Position numbers and translations under genes: made by a program. A stretch of DNA of 64,000 nucleotides from positions 58,931,004 to 58,995,003 of the forward strand of contig NC_090280.1 of NCBI RefSeq assembly GCF_037392515.1. The letters run 5' to 3'. Shown here one piece after another: positions 9,221-50,852 of the stretch. Every line of letters begins with the position of its first letter. Position 1 is the stretch's first letter. A model generated the notes under the pieces. It worked only from the letters and a program-made list of their open reading frames with translations, ran no database searches and was not told where the DNA came from. The stretch comes from Haliotis asinina. Its lineage: Eukaryota > Mollusca > Gastropoda > Lepetellida > Haliotidae.

Positions 9221-9330
9221 AAAACATTCCTAAATTTTCAATATACAATGGTAAAATTTTGTAACATAGCTGCCCCTTTTACCTCATCCATGATGGAACG
9301 TTATAACGGACCACAGCAAAAATAACTTGG

Positions 9331-9640
9331 TTTCCGTTCTTGCAGAAACCTGATGGATACTGGGTAATGTAGGTTTCCGCTAGGTTTCAGTTTCAGGAAA
9401 CGCACAATGAGAGTTTCCGCATAGTTTCCACAACTGAAACTAACAAGTCTTAGTTTCCGTCATGTTTCCGTCAACTGAAACTGTAGTTGGAAGTTTCCAT
9501 TTAGTTTCAGTTTACTGAAACCTTTATAGGTGGAGTGAGTACGTTTCTGGTCTTCCGCAAACCTTGTGGATCTTGGGTAATGTAGGTTTCCGCTAGGTTT
9601 CTGTACAAGGAAGATGACAATGAGAGTTCGCTTAGTTTAG
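9331..9640. repeat. Left subterminal repeat array
   Basis: At least ten short motifs of the GTTTCC/GGAAAC type occur here in both orientations. A longer module, 'aaacctgatggatactggg' followed by 'taatgtaggtttccgctagg', appears near 9349 and again near 9560. Such arrays are typical binding sites for transposon proteins in CACTA and similar elements. Confidence 0.7.
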
Positions 9641-9892
9641 AAAGCTGAAATATGTTGTATTATCTTGTTATATTTATTACATATTTATTTGAACAAAAAA
9701 CATACTCTGGAAATGTTATGATTCAACTGTTTCATTTCTTAGAAAAGCTCACATTTTAATGCAACAGGGCAGTTGTAGTAGTACACAATTCGCTGTATTA
9801 AGAAACTGGGGCGCTCAGAGAAGAGTAACAGAATTCTCTCCACAGAAGCATTGCTCAGGAAGTAGGCACACTGAATGAAGACGAGCTAGCCA

Positions 9893-10650
9893 CTACACAA
9901 AGTGCTTTGTTCTTCTGTAGATGTTTGTTGGTGTATGCGAGTCCTGGTTAATATCTAGCGAAACATCTGAATCCGAATCAATCAGGCTCTCACATTGTGT
10001 TGGTAATAGCTCGCAAACCTTGAATGTGCTGTTAATATCTTGGTCACTGTCAGTGCCTGGAAAGGAAAAGGACATTCAGTTTGAATCATCAATTCAACTG
10101 AGAGACAATTCACTGAAGAAAAGCTTGTAAAATCTAACATTTCCAATGAATGAAACACAGCAATATATATGATAATGCAGATAACATGTATTACAAATAT
10201 TAAATACGTATTACCATTTGCTCACTTTCAGTTATTACAGTTACATGTATGATACATACATTAAATATATTAAACATGGATAGCAAAGTGACAGTGCAAA
10301 CTTGATTTTTAGTGAAATCTAAAAATTCTTTGATGACTAACCTGATGAAACATTTGTCATTCACCCGAAAAATCTTTACAAACTAACAAACATCTTGTCG
10401 TTACGGAGATGGAGATAACGTGTTTTTCTTGAAACAGACGTCCGGCAGTGAGGACAGAAAAGCCGTATTTCTCAAAGGTTTATTGTATGTATGTACATAG
10501 TGTCTGCTTCATTATAAAGCTATATGAATAATATTGTTATAAAAGAGATTCCCTTACCGGGCATATAACAGATAATATAGCGTGAATTATAAATACCAAT
10601 GAAGGCGTCTTGTCACTCTCCGAGTTTGTTGGTCCACAATCCATATCTGT
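9893..10650 (-). CDS. Transposon ORF: zinc-finger-like, acidic protein
   Basis: Parts of a spliced minus-strand gene inside the CACTA-like element. A likely exon at 10646-10597 encodes MDCGPTNSESDKTPSL. A segment near 10470-10395 encodes CPHCRTSVSRKTRYLHLRND, a CxxC...H pattern resembling the N-terminal finger of proteins carried by some animal DNA transposons (from memory, unverified). The last exon, 10056-9893, has a clear acceptor (tttccag) and encodes an acidic tail with TDSDQDI and DSDSDVSLDI, ending NIYRRTKHFV and a stop. A polyadenylation signal follows at 9678-9673. Exact joints between the first pieces are unresolved; phases did not all agree by eye. Upstream non-coding exons probably reach 11684, where a GTAAGT donor is seen. 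Confidence 0.4.
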
Positions 10651-11390
10651 AAATCAAATAACTGACACAATGATTCTTTCAGAAATATGAAACTTGAGGT
10701 GTGATAATAATGTCAATGCATTGTAGGGCTAACACATGCAACATGTACTGATGGGCAAGGTTTTAATGGTTATAAAACAAATATCAAATCATCAAACTGA
10801 TTAACTGGTACAACTGGATACACAGAACTGACACAGAACATAAGATACTAGATAATTTGATGAACTAATAAATGTATGATGTGACTTGGTTGAAATATTT
10901 CTGGAGTACAGATTGTATGAATAGATATAACGAAGACATATATACGGAATATCTCTGGGTACCCATGTTAAAACAAATATTGTAGAAACCAACTATATTT
11001 CTGAAACTTATTTCTCGTAATTTTAGGCTGTCTTTCTTGACAATTACTTGTCGCAATGTCCACAAAGAACTGTGTCCCTGCAGCAGAAAGTGCCACGAAT
11101 AGTCTACAGAAATTATGCATGTACAAATCATAGCCAAAGGGTCAGTGGGATTGTGCTTCATTCTTCATTCACATTGACAAATGAATTAAGGCCTGAAAGA
11201 AATTGTGACACATCACCAAATTATATTAGTAATAGTAGTAAAGGTATTCATCAAGTTAACGTAAAGGGTAGATAGGGATAGTAGATCTGGGTGTACAACT
11301 GAAAAGAACAAACAATGTTAATATTTCTAACCCCCGTGCATGTTTTGAGCACTGTGCGTAAATTACTTACATGGTATGTGGGGGGAAGGG

Positions 11391-11402
11391 GGGGGGGGGG
11401 TC
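11391..11402. repeat. Poly-G tract
   Basis: A run of G inside a purine-rich stretch around 11380-11402. It may fall in an intron or exon of the minus-strand transposon gene and is likely to be length-variable. Confidence 0.6.
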
Positions 11403-11683
11403 CATCCAGCAGAAACATATCCGGATACTACCTTCTCCTGACAGGATTTTAGAAAATAACTTATTTGCCACAATAAAGTTCCCCATGAGTGCTAAATCAG
11501 TAGGACTCATGACGCTCGGGCCTGTTGAAGTAAGGTGAACATGTTTTCACAATTAATCACTGTTAATAATCACAAGGCCTACATATTGATGCTTGACACT
11601 GAGAAAAAACAATCAGTGACGCTAATGCGATGAAAAGACTGCTAAAACCATAACTGCCCACTGTTGTCACTTTGAGTACTTAC

Positions 11684-11996
11684 ATTCAATCCGCTGAATT
11701 CCACTTTTCACACTCCCCTTTGATGTCGGCAATGTAAACAAATAAACGAATGGCGACAGGATCACGTCCACGCGAGACTATCTAATTGTTACAAAAACAA
11801 CTCACAACAGGGTGTACCTTCCTCTTTTGTTGTAGAACGCGGAAATCTACTGTCAAATGGTCACATTAGATTTATTTTTAAAAAAACAATGACAAAACTG
11901 TGTATTTCCCGTGAGTGTTAGCGAGACGCCATCTTGTTTGGCGGGTAGGAACAAATTTGTTTTCCTAGCAATTATTTTCAAAACTTTAAGCATAAG
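11684..11996. promoter_or_regulatory. Shared divergent promoter region of the transposon
   Basis: The two transposon genes face away from each other across this interval. A GTAAGT donor on the minus strand (11683-11678) marks a probable first exon of the left gene, and the right gene begins with ATG codons at 11997 or 12022. The interval is richer in GC than its surroundings. No TATA box is evident. The promoter role is inferred from gene layout only. Confidence 0.35.
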
Positions 11997-12837
11997 ATGG
12001 CTGCGTCGTGTAAACTTTGCCATGGCCACCTCACTTTCCCCAAAAGCACTCGACGAAAGAATTCGCGACTTGAAGAAGAAGGCAGAGAACGGATGCGAGA
12101 AACACGGAGTACCTCGGATGTGTCAGGTATGACCGAGGGTTTTTTATTGTCAAATAACGTTTAAAGAATTATTGCGTTAATGACAGAAATCCGGATAGAT
12201 TCTAATGTTTATCCCTCGATTGTATATTTTCGCTTGTATTATTTTTAAATGTTATCGTAAAATCTACGTAAAATAGATTGAAAAATAAGTTTGTTTATAT
12301 TCAATTTCAATAGATCGACATGGTATAGAATGCACCAAGCTTGTATTTGTAAGTAACTATCTTAGTACTAACCACAAGTATTTATTTAAGTTTAAAGGGG
12401 CAGACTTTGATTTTAGTGCTCCTGTTAATAGTTTGCAAATTTTAGCGTTGCAACTCGGTTAACACTTGTACAAAAGGTGGGGGAGGGGAGGGGATGAATT
12501 ACGATCTGCATCACAAAGATCCGCCATATGTAGTGGTTCACTCATGGGTTTACTGGGTATTGCAAGATATATTTCACCAATTCAGATATATTTTAAAGAA
12601 TGATAAAAATGATGGGCTTTTACAATGGCAACATTTCGGTGTAATTTATTAAATGCAATCCGGGATCATTAGTGAAATGAATTTGTTTACCCCCAAATTC
12701 GCTCAGAGGGGTCAGATGTGTTTCTGAACTATTTAAGGCAAACACTAAATTCATGTAAGAAACTGTTAGCTTTGCGTAGGATACATTTGAAATTTAATGT
12801 AATTTTTCAGTAATTTAATACATATGTGTTAAGCATA

Positions 12838-12929
<92 letters not shown>

Positions 12930-14628
12930 ACGTATTTGATTTAATCTTTTAGGCTGTTGTGAGAAAAATCTTGACACGACTGCTCCTGGAGGATCACCCT
13001 TGTCTATCGAAGGTATGTGCTCATGTAACTAGGTAATTTCACTTTGAATATTTCATTAATTCACTTCCCTACGTACGTTTTCTCAAAATGAATAATACAT
13101 GAAAGTATCATTTGCAAATGGATTTGAATAGCCGGTAAACAAAATCGGTTTAACATTACACCTGTGTGAAATTGCCATCAAACTGACTCTTTGATTTTAC
13201 AATGCTTAATTGCTGCAAGGTTATGTCATGTGATATAACTAAAATTCTTTTATCATGATCTTTATGTCAGTTGTTCACTTACCGGTTGCATAACTTTGGC
13301 AAACAGGATGTACATAGAATTTGCACGAAATAACACAAAGGATGGTTAGCCTTTTTGGAAGTTATTTTAAATCATTTAACTACAAAATGGTAAACTTTCA
13401 GAACAATATATGTGTTCAAAGTGATATATCTGTAGTTTACTTGGTTGTATAATTTTCACTGACGATCTTTAATTTTTATTAGACATTGTGTTGAATGCAT
13501 GATTGAATGAAGTGCAAGGAAAATGACATTTGTTTTTATTTCAGTAAAGCCGGTGACGAGGACTCTATGAATATAGTAGTCAAAGAAACAAGTGACTATA
13601 TCACGACCAAGGATGGTCAATAGGATCTTGTGAAGGTAATTTTACTCACCTGCCTGTCATTATAAATAGCTAATGATTTAATTAATAGTGTAAAGACAGA
13701 TTTATGGATGTTAACTTCAGTAACCCAGCCAGCATGGCATATATAAATACCTTTGCCTCACAGATGAACTAAAATGTGTGAAACATGCTGCATAGTACTT
13801 TAAACATTTATTTTCAGAAGCGCTTTGTAGAGTGTGGCGGAACAGGCGTGATGTTCTCAGTAGACAAGAAACCGGAAAGAAAGTGTCACACAGAACAGCA
13901 GCAAAAAAAAACAACAAAAAGAATGAAATCCGTAAGTATATCTATTCGAATAATGTAATAACATGTAATAACCCTTCTCATTACAATGTCTGATGACAGA
14001 ATCTAAGTTCCGGAAATATACATTTAAAATGTTTATGGATTATTGCTTTTTACATTCTTAAGATATGTAACACATGATTCAGATCATAATTTCATAAATC
14101 ATAACATAAGAATCAAGTCAGTTAATGATGATATATGATTATGTTACTACACTTCAGTGACTTCATGTCACTTCAGATCAACAGATTGTGTGTCCATAAG
14201 AAAATAGGATATGTCATTAAATGTGATGAACTGCTTAACAAGTGTTGGGGTGATTAATGAAATAAATAATTTGTCACGACACTTCCTTTTTAATAATTTG
14301 CAATCCATCTTGACATTATGGTTTATCTGTTGATTGATTTTTGTTTAATTTTCAGAAAATTGCACTGCGCATGAAAAGCCTGAAAACTATTGACTGGCCA
14401 GATCGACGAAAGGAAAGGGTTTCAACTATACTTACCTTGGAAATGACTTCACCATTTGTGAGTGATGAAGAAGATGCCAATTTATTAATCTCTTACCCCT
14501 TTACCTGGGAATCTAAACTTAAGACGTCTGCACTGGACTCAGCCACAATTTTCAACGCCACCACCAAAGCTAAGGCCAACATGAAGACCAGGATGCGGCA
14601 TCCAACCAGAATGACAGATATCCGCTGA
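11997..14628 (+). CDS. Transposon ORF: basic protein with acidic SDEED segment
   Basis: Five exons with good splice sites: 11997-12126, 12953-13012, 13545/13550-13635, 13818-13931 and 14356-14628. The last two join in phase 0 and encode RFVECGGTGVMFSVDKKPE, then KSLKTIDWPDRRKERVS, then an acidic SDEED, then LISYPFTWESK and a basic end. The first two exons are open in two frames: one starts at 11997 (MAASCKLCHGHLTFPKSTRR, with a CxxC), the other at 12022 (MATSLSPKALDERIRDLKKK). Both ATGs have a good start context. The first frame continues through exon 3 if its acceptor is at 13550, but meets one in-frame TAG at 13621; the second must skip exon 3. I do not know the function. A polyadenylation signal lies at 15100. 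Confidence 0.5.
12841..12927. repeat. (TA)n microsatellite
   Basis: More than 40 TA units in the first intron of the plus-strand transposon gene, ending about 25 bp before the exon 2 acceptor. It is likely to vary in length between individuals. Confidence 0.95.
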
Positions 14629-15242
14629 AGGATGCCCAAATGGGCTAGTAAATAGCTAATCGATCACATGAACGCAGTGTTTTCTGTGATCAATTAAATT
14701 TGAATTATTCTCAATTTAAAACTTTAATAGTTTTGATATTCTGATTGTATTTCAATTAATACAATTTTATTCAATCTTAATTTTTATCTATTTTCCAAGA
14801 GACCTTTATTTACTTTAAATACGTTTTTTGTACTTTCAATGTAACCTAAGTTCTTTATTGCATTTTATTTCATTGTTGTATTGTATTGCATGGTGTGTGT
14901 TAAAATATGTTTAGCATTGACTGACTGTGGTGTGTTTTTCTGTGTCAGCGTGAGGAGGTGCAGGAGGAGTCAAGGGATGCAACTGTTATAGCATGTTTTT
15001 AGAAATATTTTTGTCATAAATTACAAATGTTGATCTGTTATCTAGTGCTATATCTTTTTATTATTTATTAGATATATGTTTGATCCATATTTGTCTGAAA
15101 ATAAAACAGTGAATCTTATTGTATCTTTTGTTTTTCTTTATGTATACTCGATGATTGTACACAAACTCCTTATATTGTCTTTGCCAACCAGGAGTAACAA
15201 GAATGTTATATGCAATGACACACATTGAATGACTCCTGTGAA

Positions 15243-15575
15243 CCTGAGTAAATGAAATGCTGTGGCAACGGAAACTCTGCGGAAACTATGTAGGTCAGTT
15301 TGTAACTGAAACTCTGCGGAAACCTGATGGAGTCTTGGTAACTGAAACTCTGCGGAAACCTGATGGAGTCTTGGTGACTGAAACCCTGCGATAACCTGAT
15401 GGATCTCTAACTTAACTGAAACTCAACGGAAACTTGTTGGAGCATGGGTAACGGATACCGTGCGGAAACACTTAGAAAGTGGGTAATTGAAAGTTTCCGT
15501 CATTGCGGAAACTCAGTGTAAAAGAACGGAAACTCACTGGATTCTTGGTGGAAACTTAAGTTTCAGTCCACTTTC
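15243..15575. repeat. Right subterminal repeat array
   Basis: About a dozen 'GGAAAC'/'GTTTCC' motifs. A repeated module 'gaaactctgcggaaacctga' followed by 'tggagtcttggtaact' is spaced at roughly 40 bp. The same 'aaacctgatgga' core occurs in the left array, which ties the two ends into one element. A small perfect palindrome (gtttccg...cggaaac) lies near 15490. Confidence 0.7.
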
Positions 15576-15586
15576 CATCAGTGGAC

Positions 15587-40316: not shown

Positions 40317-41541
40317 GCACCCCCACAAAAAAAGTTCACACGAATCGGATGATTCGTGCACTTCAGATGATGATGTTATAACACTTCCAAAAAATCTTGA
40401 TCATTGGGCACGGTTTCTCGTTATGTCTTCTCCCGATGGTAGTCCTCTAAAGTTAAATCCCTATGCTATTGCTAAGGGCATTGAAGGCTTAGCTGGAGAC
40501 GTAAAGGAGGTCAAAAAGCTTCGATCTGGACTTCTACTGATAGAATGTAAGAAACAGATCCAGTCTCAAATTTTACTCTCTACCAAATCACTGGCAAATG
40601 TTCCTGTTGAGATTTCACCTCATAGAGCATTAAACAACAGTAAAGGCATTGTACGCGATGTTGGACGATGCCTATCAGACATGAATGTGTATGACATTGT
40701 TTCAGAACTTCACTCACAAGGAGTAACTGATGTAAAGCGATTCACATCCAGAAAAGACAATGAAGTCACGAACACCAATACGTATTTGTTTACCTTTGGT
40801 GTCCCAACACGCCCGGATTCACTCAAAGCAGGCTATTGCAATTTAAGGGTAGATGCTTTTATACCAAATCCCCTTAGATGCTACTCTTGTCAAAAATATG
40901 GACATGGCTCAAAATCTTGCCGAAACCCAGCTGCCTGTCATAGATGTGGAGGGAAATGTGACAATAGCACAATATGTGACAAATCTCCTTCTTGTGTAAA
41001 CTGTTCTGGCAATCACCCTTCTTCATCCAAAGACTGTCCAACTTGGAAGGTACAATCTAAAATTTTACGCATCAAGCATGAACGTAACATATCTTTCCTT
41101 GATGCAAAGAAACTTGTTCTTGCCCAAGAATCACCAGGGCCATCATATGCTGCTGCTGTTTCCACGTCCACTCGAACTTCTAGCACAGATTCTAGAGCCA
41201 TTTCGTGCAATTCCGTTGGTTGCCAGACTGACTACACTTGGACTGACTCTTCGGCTCCTGCTTTACTGCCTCCACCTATCCAGATTCAACCCGGTCAGAG
41301 GACATCTGCTTCACAGACAACTCCTGTTTCTAGAGATAAGAACACTAACGCCAATGTTAATTATTCGAAGAAAAAACCGCAATCTGATCGTGTTCCTAAA
41401 GCACAGAAAAACACCACTTTTCTGTGTAACAAGTTTGGGGTGCTTGAGGACATGGACGTGTCCTCTCTTCAAAACACCCGCTCCCGGAGTCATTCTCCAA
41501 AGAAAAAAGATCGTGAGCGGTCTCCCATAACTCCCCCTTAA
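40317..41541 (+). CDS. LINE ORF1: nucleic-acid-binding protein
   Basis: The open frame from 40423 has 372 codons. The likely original start is ATG at 40317 (MAPPQKK), because the frame just upstream of 40423 reads DDDVITLPKNLDHWARFLV, a typical ORF1 lead-in. The two are separated by a one-base break in the A-run near 40327-40333. Domains: an RRM-like N-terminal region (about residues 1-140 of the 372) with 'LKLNPYAIAKGIEGL' and 'VKKLRSGLLLIE'. Cysteine knuckles follow around residues 153-210 (CYSCQKYGHGSKSC, CHRCGGKC, CVNCSGNHPSSSKDC), then a Ser/Thr-rich tail. It should coat LINE RNA in the ribonucleoprotein particle. The stop TAA at 41539 abuts the ORF2 ATG in the same frame. Confidence 0.88.
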
Positions 41542-44500
41542 ATGACCACCAATCCATTAATCCAGTGGAATTGTAGAGGTCTTAGGAATAATTTAAATGA
41601 TTTACAACTCTTAATTCAAGATTTTCAACCATCGGCCATCTGTTTACAAGAGACATACTACAAAAACACTGATAAATTTGACGTAAGAGGCTATACTTCC
41701 TATAATGTCTTTTCCCCTCCTGGGCCTAAAGCGACTGGAGGTTCAACCATCTTATTAAAAAATGGCATCATCCATAGTCCTGTCCATCTAAATACTCCGC
41801 TTCAAGCTGTAGCACTCCGTATAACTTTGCACATTGCGTTTACATTGTGTTCACTGTACCTTCCACCATCTGCTTGTATACAACAGTCTGAACTTCAAGA
41901 TCTCTATAACCAACTCCCCAAGCCCTGCATTATTACGGGTGACTTAAACGGACACAACCCCCTTTGGGGTGGTGCTCAGACGAATACTAAGGGGAAGCTC
42001 TTAGAAGATTTCATTTCTAACAATAGCTTATGCATACTTAATGATGGCTCAAACACCTATTTACATCCCGGCACAGGAACTTACTCTGCTATTGATTTAG
42101 CAATTACAGATTCAGCATTATTAAACGAATTTGAATGGTCTGTCCACGAGGATCTCTGTGGAAGTGACCACTTCCCTACTATTGTGAAAACTGTGACTCC
42201 TTCAGATGTTCCTCCTAATACAAGATGGAACTTTTCCAAGGCCAACTGGTCTTTATTTCAACTGCTTGCTTCTAGTACATTTAAACCTGGTCTATTTCTT
42301 GACATCGCCGACCCTGTACAACTATTTTCAGATGAACTGAAGAAGATAGCCGATGAATGTATTCCTAAGTCCTCCACAAATCAACACATTCGAAAACCAT
42401 GGTTTAATGATACCTGCAAACAAGCCAGAAAGGCACGGAGAAAAGCTGAGCATTATTTCCGTCGCCATCCAATGGTCCATAGCTTGAACAAATTGAAAAT
42501 TTTAAATGCAAAAGCACGGCGTACCTTTAGGCAAAATAAACGCCAATCTTGGCGAACCTATGTCTCTAAAATCAATGCACGTACACCAATTTCTAAAGTA
42601 TGGAATATGATCCAGAAGATCAAGGGTAAGGGTTCTAGATCTAGCATTCACCATCTTAAAGACGGAAACCAGTTGCTGACAAATAAATCCGATATTGCTA
42701 ATAAACTTGGTGAAACACTGGCGAAACATTCTTCTTCATCAAACTATGTACCTCAATTTCAAAAGTATCAAAATCAGCAGGAAAAAAAACCTATTAATTT
42801 TACTTCCGATAATGGTGAAGATTATAATGAAGTATTTTCGATTAATGAACTCCATACTGCTCTTGACCAGGCTCACGATACTGCTTCAGGAGCTGATAAC
42901 ATACATTATCAACTCCTGAAGCATTTACCGGAATCATCTTTAGAGACGCTTCTTCATATTTTCGATGGTATTTGGACGTCTGGAAATTTTCCTTCTTCAT
43001 GGCGTGATGCTATAATTGTGCCCATTCCTAAACCTGGACGTGATCACACTGATCCTTCCAATTATAGGCCGATTTCATTAACTAGCTGCGTTTGCAAGAC
43101 CAAGGAACGCATGATAAATAATCGACTTGTTTGGTACTTGGAAACAAATAACTTAATAACAGATATTCAATGTGGTTTCCGTAAAAACAGAAGTACTACT
43201 GTTGATCATTTAGTGCGTTTAGAATCGTTTGTGAAGAATGCCATCATTAATAAGCAACATGCAGTGTCAATATTTTTCGATTTAGAAAAAGCATACGACA
43301 CAACCTGGAAACATGGGATTTTAAGAGACTTACATGACTTTGGATTGCGAGGCCGCTTGCCCCAATTTATATCCAACTTTCTAAATGACAGGCAATTTCA
43401 AGTCCGCGTGGGTTCTACCCTGTCTGATCATTACAGTCAGGATCAGGGTGTTCCACAAGGCAGCATTTTGTCTGTCACTTTGTTTAGTATTAAAATAAAT
43501 AGTCTTTCAAAAGTGTTAAGAGATTCAATCAACGGTTCCCTTTTCGTGGATGACTTTAATATTTCTTGTCGTGGCACAAACATGCGAACCATTGAGAGAC
43601 AGTTGCAAATCTGTCTCAACAAAATTCATAAATGGTGCCTTGAGAACGGGTTTAAATTTTCTCAATCTAAAACCAACTGCATTCACTTCTGTCGAAAATA
43701 CAAACCTCATAAAGACCCTGACTTATCTTTGAATGGTGCACCCATCAAAGTTGTCAAGGAAGCTAAGTTTCTTGGTCTCATCTTTGACTCACACTTAACC
43801 TTTCTGCCACATCTTAAATACCTAAAAAAACAAATGCCTGAAGGCGCTCGATCTGTTGAAAGTCGTTTCAAATACAACGTGGGGAGGAGACCAAACAACC
43901 CTTCTACATTTATACCGGTCACTCATCAGATCTAAACTGGATTACGGCTCCATTGTCTATGGTGGAGCCTGTAAAAGCAACCTCAAAATACTTGATTCTA
44001 TCCATCACCAAGGTCTGAGGCTTTGTCTTGGATCATTTCGAACTTCTCCTGTTGACAGTCTATACGTTGAAGCAGATGAACCTTCTCTTGACCACCGTCG
44101 TATTAAACTATCCTTACAGTATCTCGCTAAACTGTCTTCAAATAAGTCCAACCCTGCATATAACTGTGTCTTCAATCCCTTGTATGGGGATTTGTACAAT
44201 AAGAAGTCTTCTCTTGCTCCACCTCTTGGGCTAAGAGTGAAACCTTTCCTTTCTGCTGCTGGCATTGAACTAGAAAATGTAGCTCCTTCTCGCTTGTTTT
44301 CTTCTCCTCCGTGGCAGCTGGTTAGACCACAAGTTGATCTTACATTAAGTAAATATAAAAAATCAGATACTAATGAATTACAATACAAACAGGAATATAA
44401 TCAATTGAAAGATAGGTATAGTACGTATAAATCCTTATTTACAGATGGGTCCAAGGATGGTGGCGCTGTGGCTTGTGCCACTGTCATTGGATCCAGAACA

Positions 44501-45232
44501 ATATCTTCTAGATTACCAAATAACAGTTCCATTTTCACAGCAGAAGCACATGCCATATTAACAGCCCTAAAATATATTAAAAAACACCCTAAGTATAAAC
44601 AATATATCATTTATTCAGACTCTCTTTCATGCCTCCAGGCTATTAAGAATGTATCTTCTCAACATCCACTTTTAGCTGACATCGTTGAATTGTATAATGA
44701 TCTTGCTACTGGCCAATTCGACATCGTCTTCTGTTGGTTACCCAGCCATGTTGGAATCTCTGGTAACACAATGGCCGATCTTGCTGCCAAAGCCGCTCTC
44801 AACAAATCTGTGACACCGCTTCTGCTCCCTTATTCTGATTATAAAGCCGTTATAAGATCATATATCCGAGATCTAATGCAAAAGAAGTGGGACACCCAAG
44901 TAGGTATCAATAAATTACATGGTATAAAGCCCTATATCGGTTATACCTACATGGGTTGTCAGTCCAGATTTGAAGAGGTTATTATGCGACGATGTCGCAT
45001 TGGCCATACGCGATATACTCACGAATACTTGTTAAAAGGTGAGGATCCTCCGTTTTGTATCCCTTGTGATGAAAGAATCACGGTCAAGCATGTCCTGCTT
45101 GACTGTGTTGATTTTGCCATCACAAGGGATAAATATTTCAATGTGAAAACTATAAAGGATCTTTTTTATAATGTTAATCATCATTTAATAATTGAATTTT
45201 TAAAGGAAATAGAATTGCTACATAAATTCTGA
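41542..45232 (+). CDS. LINE ORF2: endonuclease, reverse transcriptase, RNase H
   Basis: One frame break near 43832-43845, in an A-rich run, separates 41542-43935 from the frame that ends at 45232. Apurinic-type endonuclease: 'QWNCRGLRN', 'ICLQET', 'GDLNGHNPLWGG' and 'GSDHFPT'. Reverse transcriptase: 'NYRPISLTS', 'QCGFRKNRSTTVDH', 'FFDLEKAYDTTW', 'QGVPQGSILS' and the catalytic 'LFVDDF' (Val where Ala is commoner), then 'AKFLGLIFD'. RNase H: 'FTDGSKDGG', 'FTAEAHAI', 'YSDSLSCLQ' and 'WLPSHVGISGNTMADLAAKA' carry the acidic and histidine residues. A short C-terminal region follows with 'CRIGHTRYTHEYLLKG' and a 'CIPCDE...KHVLLDC' cysteine-histidine motif. It nicks DNA and copies the LINE RNA at the target. 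All motifs are intact; only the frame break disables it. Confidence 0.9.
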
Positions 45233-48056: not shown

Positions 48057-50852
48057 TCAACCATAAACATTCATACCACGTAATTCCTTTTCAAATACGA
48101 TTACGGGATCTTTGTAGAATGTATCGCGGAACTGACTCTCACCACTGAATCCTTGAAAAGGGACCCAGTATTCGCATATAGCGTTTGACCAGCAAATGTT
48201 GTGCCACCCTAGGATGTACAGAATGCGACGAAACTTGGGATCGGTTTTCATTATAGTTAAGAAATTGTCAGTCCAGAAATTCGTATGGTTGTAAATTCCG
48301 TCATCAAACATACCAGCTTCTGCTATAGCGGGAATCTTTCCTCTTGTTTCCGCGATGTCTACAAGGTTTGCAAGATTGGTCTTCAATGCTTCCTTTGTTG
48401 TGGTCGGTGTAAATTTGTAGTAGTAGTCGACGGCAATGATGTCAATGTAGTCATCCCCTGGGTACAGCATGTGAAAATTGTCAGTGTTGGACAAGCAGTC
48501 AATGGCGAAGTTGTACAGGAAGTTATGGACTCCCTTAATGTCCCGGAGGTAGGAAACGGTGTATCTCAAAATATCTCGTACATCCTTGGGTGTGTTGTGG
48601 CACCTGTTGTTCATGCCCCACCAGAACCAATCACCGTCCATTTCGTGGAACAGACGGTAGATGATTGGGATGGACTTCCCATGTGCGTCCTTCAGATTGG
48701 TGGCCCAGGAAGCAATTTTATCCAAGTTGGCCTTGTAATTCCCATGAGCATCCCCACCAGGTAATGATCGCCTGAGTGTGTGGGTCACAGTTCCGTTGTC
48801 CCAGCTTAGTCTGAAGGATCCCCCAGACACTGGGTTGTTGTTGTGCTGACAGACGGTAATAACCTGACCTCGGGCGTGGGCTTTCTTCACCAGGTAGGTC
48901 ACAACTTTCATTTCGTCCGCGTCGAAGTTTTTAAAATCGAAGCCCACGATTGCAGGATACTCCCCAGTTACACTTCGTATGTCTGATAATTCGTCCTCAT
49001 CACCTCGATCCACTTGTGAAGTCTGCAAGATAAATATTTACATTCAGTAACTTTGTAATGTGTGTACACCAATTGAAATGAAGTAAAAACAGGTCCATGT
49101 CGTAGCCAATCTGATTAGGCAGCTCACAGACAATTCATATGCAGAGTAATATGTTTCACATAAATACCGACATTTTTTAAATAAATGTGCCTTTGCGGTA
49201 GAGGACAATGCATTGGAAAAAAACTCATTTTAGTTTTGTAGTTAAACAAGAGAAAAATACGCGTACGAGCACTACTTGCTATATACATTACAGTTTTCAT
49301 GACGTTATAAATCTGTAGATCTTTTTTTGTCAAGCGGTAAGATCAAGGCCATTGCGCGAGACCAACCACTAGACACTAATTATAACAAACAAACAAACAA
49401 ACAAATTGGACAGATCCACCAATAACAATTGATGGCATGTTATATTATAACTCACTAACTCCACACTCCACTTTTCAGCGATGATTTTGTCATAACAACA
49501 ACAAGGAGTGTCAGTATGGATGAAGCGTGATATGGCTTGAAGAGCATGTGATGGCAGTCGGAGAGACATGCATTCAATTGTTTTTAAAGGGGACTGCTCA
49601 TCCATGTTGAGTATTGGAAAGCAATGCCATGTATGGTGAGTGATCTTTATTTGCAAAAAAAACTTCATCAAATATGTTTGCGGGATAACAACTGCACACC
49701 AAACACATTCAAACGAACTAAGAACGTCTGATTTAATAAAAGAATCGCTGGCATGAAGCGAACTAGCGCGACCACAGAAACCAGTGTGACGAACGAACGG
49801 ATTTGCCAGGCTATTACCAGGATGTCAACTGCACCTGAGGCAAGTTATAATAAGAAGAGGAGTAACATATGTTGCAACTAGCATGTCTCTTCAATTAAGG
49901 CGGACTGCTCATATGGGTAAAACGTTCGGATGAGGATGACCAGCAGCTGAGACCACCGTTAGAACTGACTGTAGCATATTACCATACCTTTTACTAATCG
50001 GCTCAACGATCATGATCTTCACATTTTAATCTAATAAAGGCACTTCAAGTAGAAGCATGACATCTCACTAGAAGTACTTACTGTAAATTTCCAAAATGGT
50101 TTCCAGGCATGTGCGTACTTGGTAACTTGGTAGTTAGGGCGACCAGGAGATATGCCGGTCAATGTGTCTTCATGGTGTCCAAACATGACCTTGTTAGGAC
50201 TGCGGGCTAGTTTCAGCATGTTGTTATACAACGCCACTGTTTCTGGCGTGGCATGCTGGTCCACTGGAGATCCGTACAACGAGGCCCACACAAATGTTGA
50301 AAGGGCCAACAGCCTGGACACAAATTATCGACTAGTAGAATTATACTACCTTCTTCAAACAAACGCGGAATTATTTAATACCCATTTACCTTCTGAAAGA
50401 GCGTGGAACTGTAATTCTTGCTAATTTCTAAACGTGCTTACAGACAGTTTGTTTTCCATAATTGGAAACTGAATTGAGGATGCTATATGGCCAGAAAACA
50501 TACATTTTAGACATGTTTCTTTTTCTTAAATAAAATAGCGATATCTGAAAAAGGAAGCACTGAGGTCTCAGGTGTCTTCTTACTGAAGTGGTTCTTATAG
50601 TTCTCGTCTTGTCAGACCAGAGACATTAACTAGATTTTAACTAGACACTTTAACGAAAACAAACGATAACGCTGTAGTTTCAACGTTCAGTGACAAAGTG
50701 ACCTGTGTTGCTTTTTCCTAAATTTGATTTGAGATAAGGATCAGACATATCTTCTTATGCTTAGCACTTAATTCTCAAATATGCACTACTATGCTCTAAA
50801 TTTCTGAGGAGTGGGGTAATGAGAAAACTCACCTCAAGATGTGGTTTTCCAT
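48057..50852 (-). CDS. GH26 endo-1,4-beta-mannanase, secreted
   Basis: Hydrolyses internal beta-1,4-mannosidic bonds of mannans; GH26 is a (beta/alpha)8 retaining family with two catalytic glutamates. Three exons: 50852-50833 (start, MENHIL plus two bases), 50313-50082 and 49022-48057, all with GT/AG borders and agreeing phases, giving 405 aa. The joined start MENHILRLLALSTFVWASL is a signal peptide, pointing to a digestive secreted enzyme. The acid/base Glu is about residue 211 in FHEMDGDWFWWG and the nucleophile about 319 in IPAIAEAGM. 'SPNKVMFGHHEDTLTGIS' near residue 50 and 'WDNGTVTHTL' are further family-like segments. The protein ends at the catalytic domain, with no binding module. A partial inverted copy lies at 16043-17112. 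Animal GH26 genes may descend from bacterial transfer, but the introns and TATA box show it is now a normal host gene. Confidence 0.9.

Follow-up and report, generated by a model that had tools for sequence, protein, structure and literature searches.

A high-copy, non-autonomous EnSpm/CACTA element of Haliotis asinina and its transposase-bearing relatives

Introduction

Deletion derivatives of the plant transposon Spm/En that retain the cis-acting sites are moved by proteins supplied in trans, and TNPA binds the subterminal repeats (PMC2613891). In Spm/En the transposase and the array-binding TNPA are produced from one unit by alternative splicing, and dSpm and other plant CACTA derivatives combine CAC-type ends, a 3-bp target-site duplication, subterminal arrays, a tnp2-bearing parent and an internal deletion that removes transposase sequence (PMC2613891). 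Here we describe an element with these features in the abalone Haliotis asinina, at positions 9312-15583 of a 64,000-nucleotide stretch of contig NC_090280.1 (the window). The comparison with dSpm would extend to movement in trans, and differs in that the parent found here has two divergent genes in place of one alternatively spliced unit.

Animal elements of the TRC type (SmTRC1, PMC1636069; Spongebob, PMC4298943) resemble the present family in their animal hosts, the Transposase_21 domain (SmTRC1), the presence of extra short proteins and the many copies. They have CCC termini and 2-bp duplications (PMC1636069), whereas the window family has CAC termini and 3-bp duplications, and membership of the TRC type was rejected on the ends and duplications. 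EnSpm elements in the Repbase-style classification share the CAC..GTG termini and 3-bp duplications (PMC12730594); compared by their described features, the families treated in that source are fungal and carry TET/JBP genes, unlike the window family. A literature search (titles and abstract openings of the top-listed part of the matches) returned no description of this family, and the available part of an article on bivalve transposons (PMC10294476) mentions CMC elements and holds nothing on it.

Results

The window element and its copies

The element starts at 9312 with CACAGCAAAAATAACTTGG (its opening reads CACAGCAAAAATAAC) and finishes at 15583 with ...CATCAGTG, giving CAC...GTG ends with GAC flanking both sides. 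GTTTCC/GGAAAC hexamers are concentrated in the two subterminal regions: the left 400 bp hold 9, of which 8 share one orientation, the right 350 bp hold 10, of which 9 point the opposite way, and the 5,522 bp in the middle have none; in dinucleotide shuffles of each element end, 0 of 1,000 reached the observed count. The array motif is able to form a near-palindrome; one example, GGTTTCCGCACTGCGGAAACC, is found where other copies have an intact right end. Intact right ends of other copies read GTTTCCGCACTGCGGAAACCAGGTTATTTTTGCTGTG, and the window copy lacks ~34 bp of that repeat. Because part of its right terminal repeat has been lost, the window copy is presumably immobile now. An earlier note, made from the window sequence alone, had reported CAC ends, a GAC duplication, arrays and the absence of a transposase, all of which are present, and its description of a CACTA-like non-autonomous element holds. 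The features of the ends are:

9309..9311, no strand: left target-site duplication GAC (direct reading)
9312..9350, plus: left terminal inverted repeat, CACAGCAAAAATAACTTGGTTTCCGTTCTTGC(A/G)GAAACC, with a 24-bp core found 371 times genome-wide
9330..9591, plus: left subterminal GTTTCC array, 8 plus-oriented and 1 opposite (hexamer count)
15270..15555, minus: right subterminal GGAAAC array, 9 in one orientation and 1 opposite (hexamer count)
15574..15583, minus: damaged right end, GTG kept, ~34 bp of the terminal repeat gone relative to other copies
15584..15586, no strand: right target-site duplication GAC (direct reading)

The terminal-repeat pattern CACAGCAAAAATAACYTGGTTTCC was matched 186 times in forward and 185 times in reverse orientation in the 1.14-Gb genome, and the same pattern read backwards, as a control, gave 0 matches genome-wide. 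Individual places were obtained for the first 100 of the 371 matches, which cover contig C1 in full (49 ends). On this contig there are 19 neighbouring plus/minus pairs less than 40 kb apart; every one couples a left-type with a right-type end, and the stretch enclosed measures 5.8-6.2 kb in 15 of them. A genome search with the whole region returned 73 matching pieces, the longest partners being 91-95% identical by blastn. Since the copies of one nine-copy group are 98.7-99.2% identical in pairwise comparison, recent movement of the family is suggested.

To score target-site duplications, 24 copies (the window copy and 23 fetched by place) were examined, and the flanking 3-mers were identical in 16 of the 18 with both ends scorable. 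L009 and L025 counted as mismatches; L012, L018, L019, L020, L023 and L028 were dropped with one end off the pattern. The right end of the window copy was set by hand owing to its damaged repeat, and the inner of two left ends was used for L022. With the chance of a match set at 1 in 20, a binomial estimate for this agreement is 2e-19. The duplications seen were GAC, GCG, TAA, CTT, TAT, TTA, AAC, GTT, AGT and others. A genome search with the window left flank recovered only itself in full and five short matches, and no empty site was found among these. The earlier note had held that its proposal would fail if no other copy shared both ends or if the two genes were single-copy host genes conserved at the same place in related species; neither is the case within the H. 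asinina genome.

PIF/Harbinger elements are likewise two-gene elements with a 3-bp duplication, at a TWA-type target. A target of this type was rejected for the present family, as the duplications include GCG, CTT, AAC, GTT, AGT and GAC. The transposase of the relative described below matches tnp2.

An (AT)43 microsatellite lies at window 12841-12926, within intron 1 of the plus-strand gene, and the blastn alignments of many other copies break there. Element matches also occur at near-equal spacing at C13:40832924-40842237 (~4.54 kb) and C21:244560-746152 (0.24-0.26 Mb), and as near-identical pairs at C2:10.21 and 10.23 Mb; the even spacing and pairing suggest tandem or segmental duplications carrying the element.

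Transposase-bearing relatives

The PF02992 profile gave six matches in the genome, of which the best, C13:326302-326676, sits 5 kb from C13:331835-332107, the most diverged match listed for exon 5 of the window's plus-strand gene. The two fall within a parent-type element at C13:324276-333228 (8,953 bp, CAC...GTG, TAC/TAC duplication) with GTTTCC and GGAAAC arrays near both ends, which carries both window genes in the same order together with a tnp2 exon. The earlier note had named a tnp2-type transposase between similar arrays as support for its idea, and this element provides one.

On the minus strand of the C13 element, finger A (TVLCGHCDKYVSRKTAYNHKKKF), finger B (QLFCPHCQTFVSRKTRYLHLRH) and acidic segments are followed by the large tnp2 exon. 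A 366-amino-acid frame matches PF02992 over the cut-off (E=5.4e-14); a 511-amino-acid frame, in another reading frame and overlapping the former, gave a weak DUF4218 match below the cut-off (E=0.0055). For the C(2)C and H(3-4)H motifs that EnSpm/CACTA transposases have between the second D and the last E, the candidates ADIPA (D), CSHC, HLHCH and FERYNG (E) appear by eye in this order in these frames, which are split by a break. The plus strand holds the second gene of the window element, and the two genes diverge from the centre, the transposase on the minus strand and the gene for the second small protein on the plus strand.

Another parent-type copy lies at C5:64263471-64269857 (ATG/ATG); it carries the tnp2 exon and runs through the frame-break point of the C13 element in a single frame. 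The element at C4:59657001-59664678 is a more distant relative: its ends and arrays are similar, it has a finger-A exon, its tnp2 identity is 59%, and its flanks (CTC vs CTT) do not match as a duplication. A tblastn search of this relative with exons 4 and 5 of the second gene gave nothing convincing, which would speak against a helper role of the second protein (discussed below) being universal, or for its fast evolution.

A genome search was also made with 282 amino acids of tnp2, in which 138 of 251 candidates were scored and 140 matches listed. Among the matches listed, the C13 element alone matches over the full length at high identity, followed by the C5 copy in two pieces (84-87%) and by the C4 relative at 59%; by a count made by eye, ~120 of the 140 extend no further than residue 93, like the relic in the derivative.

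Two similar CxxC...H finger exons, CGHCDKYVSRKTAYNH and CPHCQTFVSRKTRYLH, are present in the parent transposase, probably through duplication of one exon; the C4 relative yielded a single convincing finger exon, which is nearer to the first. Directly adjoining the C13 element, C13:320802-324275 contains frames that by eye resemble the integrase and reverse transcriptase/RNase H of a Gypsy-like long terminal repeat (LTR) element. Further tnp2 families were noted, namely L033 and L035-L037, the latter being three near-identical copies at C4:41.7, 42.2 and 42.6 Mb. Uninterrupted 814-amino-acid frames at C1:58321189 and C11:224430, with 36% identity in the tnp2 search, could be intact transposases of another EnSpm family.

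Internal deletions relative to the C13 element

Aligned blocks of the window and C13 elements are collinear at 70-82% identity. The larger length difference, C13:324630-327052 (2.4 kb, the main tnp2 exon), falls between element positions 407 and 452, and a second of ~0.56 kb (C13:327272-327830) falls between positions 654 and 657. Despite the missing transposase stretches, the window family keeps both ends and both arrays. The two junctions are:

9718..9763, no strand: larger deletion junction; element 1-407 corresponds to C13:324276-324629 and element 452-657 to C13:327053-327271
9965..9968, no strand: second deletion junction; ~0.56 kb in C13, with a gap of ~0.6 kb also relative to C5

The minus-strand gene

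The minus-strand fingers, acidic exons and first codons of the tnp2 exon are homologous to the C13 transposase and stand in the same order, and in the C13 relative the segment 'DINQDS...RRTKHF', then VFIQCAYFLSNACVERILLLFS, leads directly into the tnp2 exon. Since comparison with C13 shows the window family to be without the 2.4 kb transposase exon and the 0.56 kb stretch, the minus-strand gene, described in the earlier note as a finger plus an acidic tail, is on this comparison the decayed 5' part of the transposase and not an accessory gene; the acidic tail crosses the second deletion junction.

Of the two TAA stops in finger A, 17 of 19 aligned copies have the first and all 19 the second. 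The acidic exon past TKHFV holds a stop in 8 of the 19 copies and stays open in another 8; in L025, L027 and L031 it is shifted. The ratio of replacement to synonymous substitution rates (dN/dS) was 0.37 for finger B (22 codons) and 0.89 for the first acidic piece (33 codons); values for a 20-codon piece of the acidic segment (0.58, 1.88 and 1.29) were not used, the piece being too short, and a dN/dS for tnp2 between C13 and C5 was discarded owing to misaligned frames. The minus-strand features are:

9673..9689, minus: two AATAAA hexamers (TTTATT at 9673-9678 and 9684-9689), candidate polyadenylation signals of the transposase gene (by eye)
9742..9885, minus: relic of the tnp2 exon start (LVFIQCAYFLSNACVERILLLFS...); similar short relics occur genome-wide
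9896..10054, minus: relic of the transposase acidic exons (TDSDQDINSTFK...DSDSDVSLDINQDSHTPTNIYRRTKHFV, then a stop), fused over the second deletion (vs C13)
10380..10472, minus: finger-B exon, transposase N-terminus (RLFCPHCRTSVSRKTRYLHLRN; parent QLFCPHCQTFVSRKTRYLHLRH) (vs C13)
11000..11085, minus: finger-A exon relic with TAA stops (parent TVLCGHCDKYVSRKTAYNHKKKFQK) (vs C13)

The plus-strand gene

The plus-strand features are:

12022..12126, plus: exon 1, given in the frame of the parent (MATSLSPKALDERIRDL...); a different frame (MAASCKLCHGH...) begins at an upstream ATG, 11997, and has stops in the parent
12953..13012, plus: exon 2, 5 bases shorter than in C13
13545..13635, plus: exon 3, opening with TAA when read in the parental phase and carrying a 1-base deletion against C13 and C5 alike (alignment)
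13818..13931, plus: exon 4 (EALCRVWRNRRD...), with an A-tract of variable length
14356..14628, plus: exon 5, basic protein with an SDEED segment
15100..15105, plus: AATAAA, candidate polyadenylation signal of the second gene (by eye)

In the C13 element, the frame from the second ATG (MATSL..., 12022) is open across exons 1-3 and is continued by exons 4 and 5. A gene model from the first ATG (11997) was rejected, its frame holding stops in C13 exon 2. In the derivative family, the parental exon chain reaches exon 5 in 0 of 19 copies from either ATG, and in the parental frame 12 copies and the window copy stop after 55 amino acids, directly past exon 2. If exon 3 is skipped, 4 of the 19 copies (the window copy, L013, L030 and L031) reach exon 5 from the second ATG with exon 4 in a non-parental frame, the window copy having a frame of 183 amino acids into exon 5, and 3 of the 19 (L015, L017 and L024) reach it from the first.

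For exon 5, comparison of the family majority with C13 gave a dN of 0.154 and a dS of 1.02 (ratio 0.15); the dN/dS is 0.30 between the majority and C5, and 0.17 between C13 and C5. For exon 4 the ratio was 0.21 when read in its coding frame, against 1.05 in the alternative one. The two frames of exon 1 gave 0.84 and 1.08, at a low dS, and are uninformative. The second protein was thus constrained, at least in exons 4 and 5, while the lineages diverged. In the parent, the plus-strand gene is a true second gene; in the derivative family, its frame is broken in exons 2-3.

No chain of the Protein Data Bank matched a 10-sequence profile of exon 5 at E values up to 1, and an AlphaFold model of this exon, with a mean predicted local distance difference test (pLDDT) score of 45.9, was too poor to use. 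A Pfam search with the translations of both window genes gave nothing significant. As the earlier note had stated, an AATAAA lies just inside each array of the window element. The exon chains given there do not yield the proteins of the parent. The note's statement that the element keeps two accessory genes did not stand: the minus-strand gene corresponds to the 5' end of the transposase, and the plus-strand gene has a broken frame and an apparently neutral exon 5. The basic SDEED protein, called conserved-looking, is so in comparison with C13 but seemingly neutral among derivative copies.

Other features of the window

A non-LTR retrotransposon lies at window 40423-45232 (plus strand), with a 372-amino-acid CCHC-type open reading frame (by eye; no Pfam match), then a 797-amino-acid endonuclease/reverse transcriptase (RVT_1, E=1.1e-35) and last a 458-amino-acid RNase H frame that overlaps the 797-amino-acid frame in another reading frame. 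On the minus strand, window 48057-49028 is an open frame of 323 amino acids for a mannanase-type enzyme (Glyco_hydro_26, E=1.2e-42), apparently intronless over this stretch.

Discussion

The window element is a non-autonomous member of EnSpm/CACTA, a known kind of transposon. It has CAC...GTG inverted-repeat termini, a 3-bp duplication and subterminal arrays, the last also found at the ends of the C13 and C4 elements, and the tnp2/Transposase_21 domain is present in the C13 relative, where it is broken, and absent from the window element. We are confident that the element is a high-copy, dSpm-like derivative of an animal EnSpm/CACTA family, made non-autonomous by internal deletion. The derivative would have arisen by deletion from a C13-like parent and spread by cut-and-paste with transposase supplied in trans by a parent-type copy, as in Spm/En biology; the arrays would serve as binding sites of an element protein, and the derivative's genes would be relics carried along. 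That the 1-base deletion in exon 3 is absent from both C13 and C5, and that finger A is stopped in all 19 copies, fits the shorter form being the decayed one.

Several observations weigh against this interpretation. The C13 element is itself defective: its transposase is split between two overlapping frames that do not connect, and a stop interrupts exon 5 of its second gene. The C5 copy lacks the centre, and the tnp2 of the C4 relative is broken into several frames. Neither the PF02992 genome search nor the 282-amino-acid tnp2 search, among its matches listed, found an intact transposase of the family, so these searches give no source for the youngest burst.

It is improbable, in our view, that the derivative was selected to keep the plus-strand gene as an array-binding helper, analogous to TNPA, that aids its own mobilisation and that of its relatives. 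The strong constraint on exon 5 between the family and C13 fits such a role, as do the 137 of 150 scored exon-5 matches that list no stop (counted by eye; best 150 of 317 candidates) and the frames that exon-3 skipping would leave open into exon 5 in a few copies from either ATG. The parental chain, however, reaches exon 5 in none of the 19 copies, with exon 2 short by 5 bases and exon 3 by one relative to C13. Changes in exon 5, counted against the majority sequence and not on a fitted tree, at first favoured selection: in 19 copies, shared changes comprised 5 synonymous and 4 replacement, and singletons 6 synonymous, 26 replacement and 3 stops (p=0.03). This contrast was gone when 20 more copies were picked from the exon-5 match list to include diverged ones; in the resulting 39, the counts of synonymous, replacement and stop changes were 11, 30 and 1 among shared changes against 25, 67 and 6 among singletons (p=1.0), where exon 5 offers ~3.3 replacement sites per synonymous site. 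The proposal that the two accessory genes are under selection was rejected, and the simplest reading is that exon 5 drifts neutrally within the amplified family. Capture of two host genes by the transposon, as in a Pack-type element, might be suggested by two spliced genes with exon signals inside a non-autonomous element, but we consider it hardly credible: both genes occupy corresponding places in the C13 element, where one of them is continuous with the tnp2 exon, and no match outside the family was recognised among the best 150 of 317 and best 150 of 440 candidates, rows that were mostly not viewed singly.

An internal-deletion derivative moved in trans is an ordinary mechanism, and the parent's divergent two-gene layout is mildly interesting. 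We tentatively hypothesize, as a possibility with somewhat less than even chances, that the parent belongs to an animal EnSpm lineage encoding a transposase and a separate array-binding helper as divergent genes with a shared central promoter, that the GGTTTCCG...CGGAAACC palindromes are the site recognised by the constrained second protein, and that the loss of constraint marks a switch to a pure passenger. The array-binding role of the second protein is putative.

With these relatives, what had been a puzzling 'transposon with two accessory genes' becomes a concrete pair of parent and derivative with the deletion junctions located. The ends of this animal CACTA family resemble those of plant elements (CAC, 3-bp duplications and subterminal arrays), unlike the animal TRC elements with CCC and 2-bp duplications (PMC1636069), and its once-constrained second protein, together with the candidate palindromic site, would form a directly testable helper/array pair.

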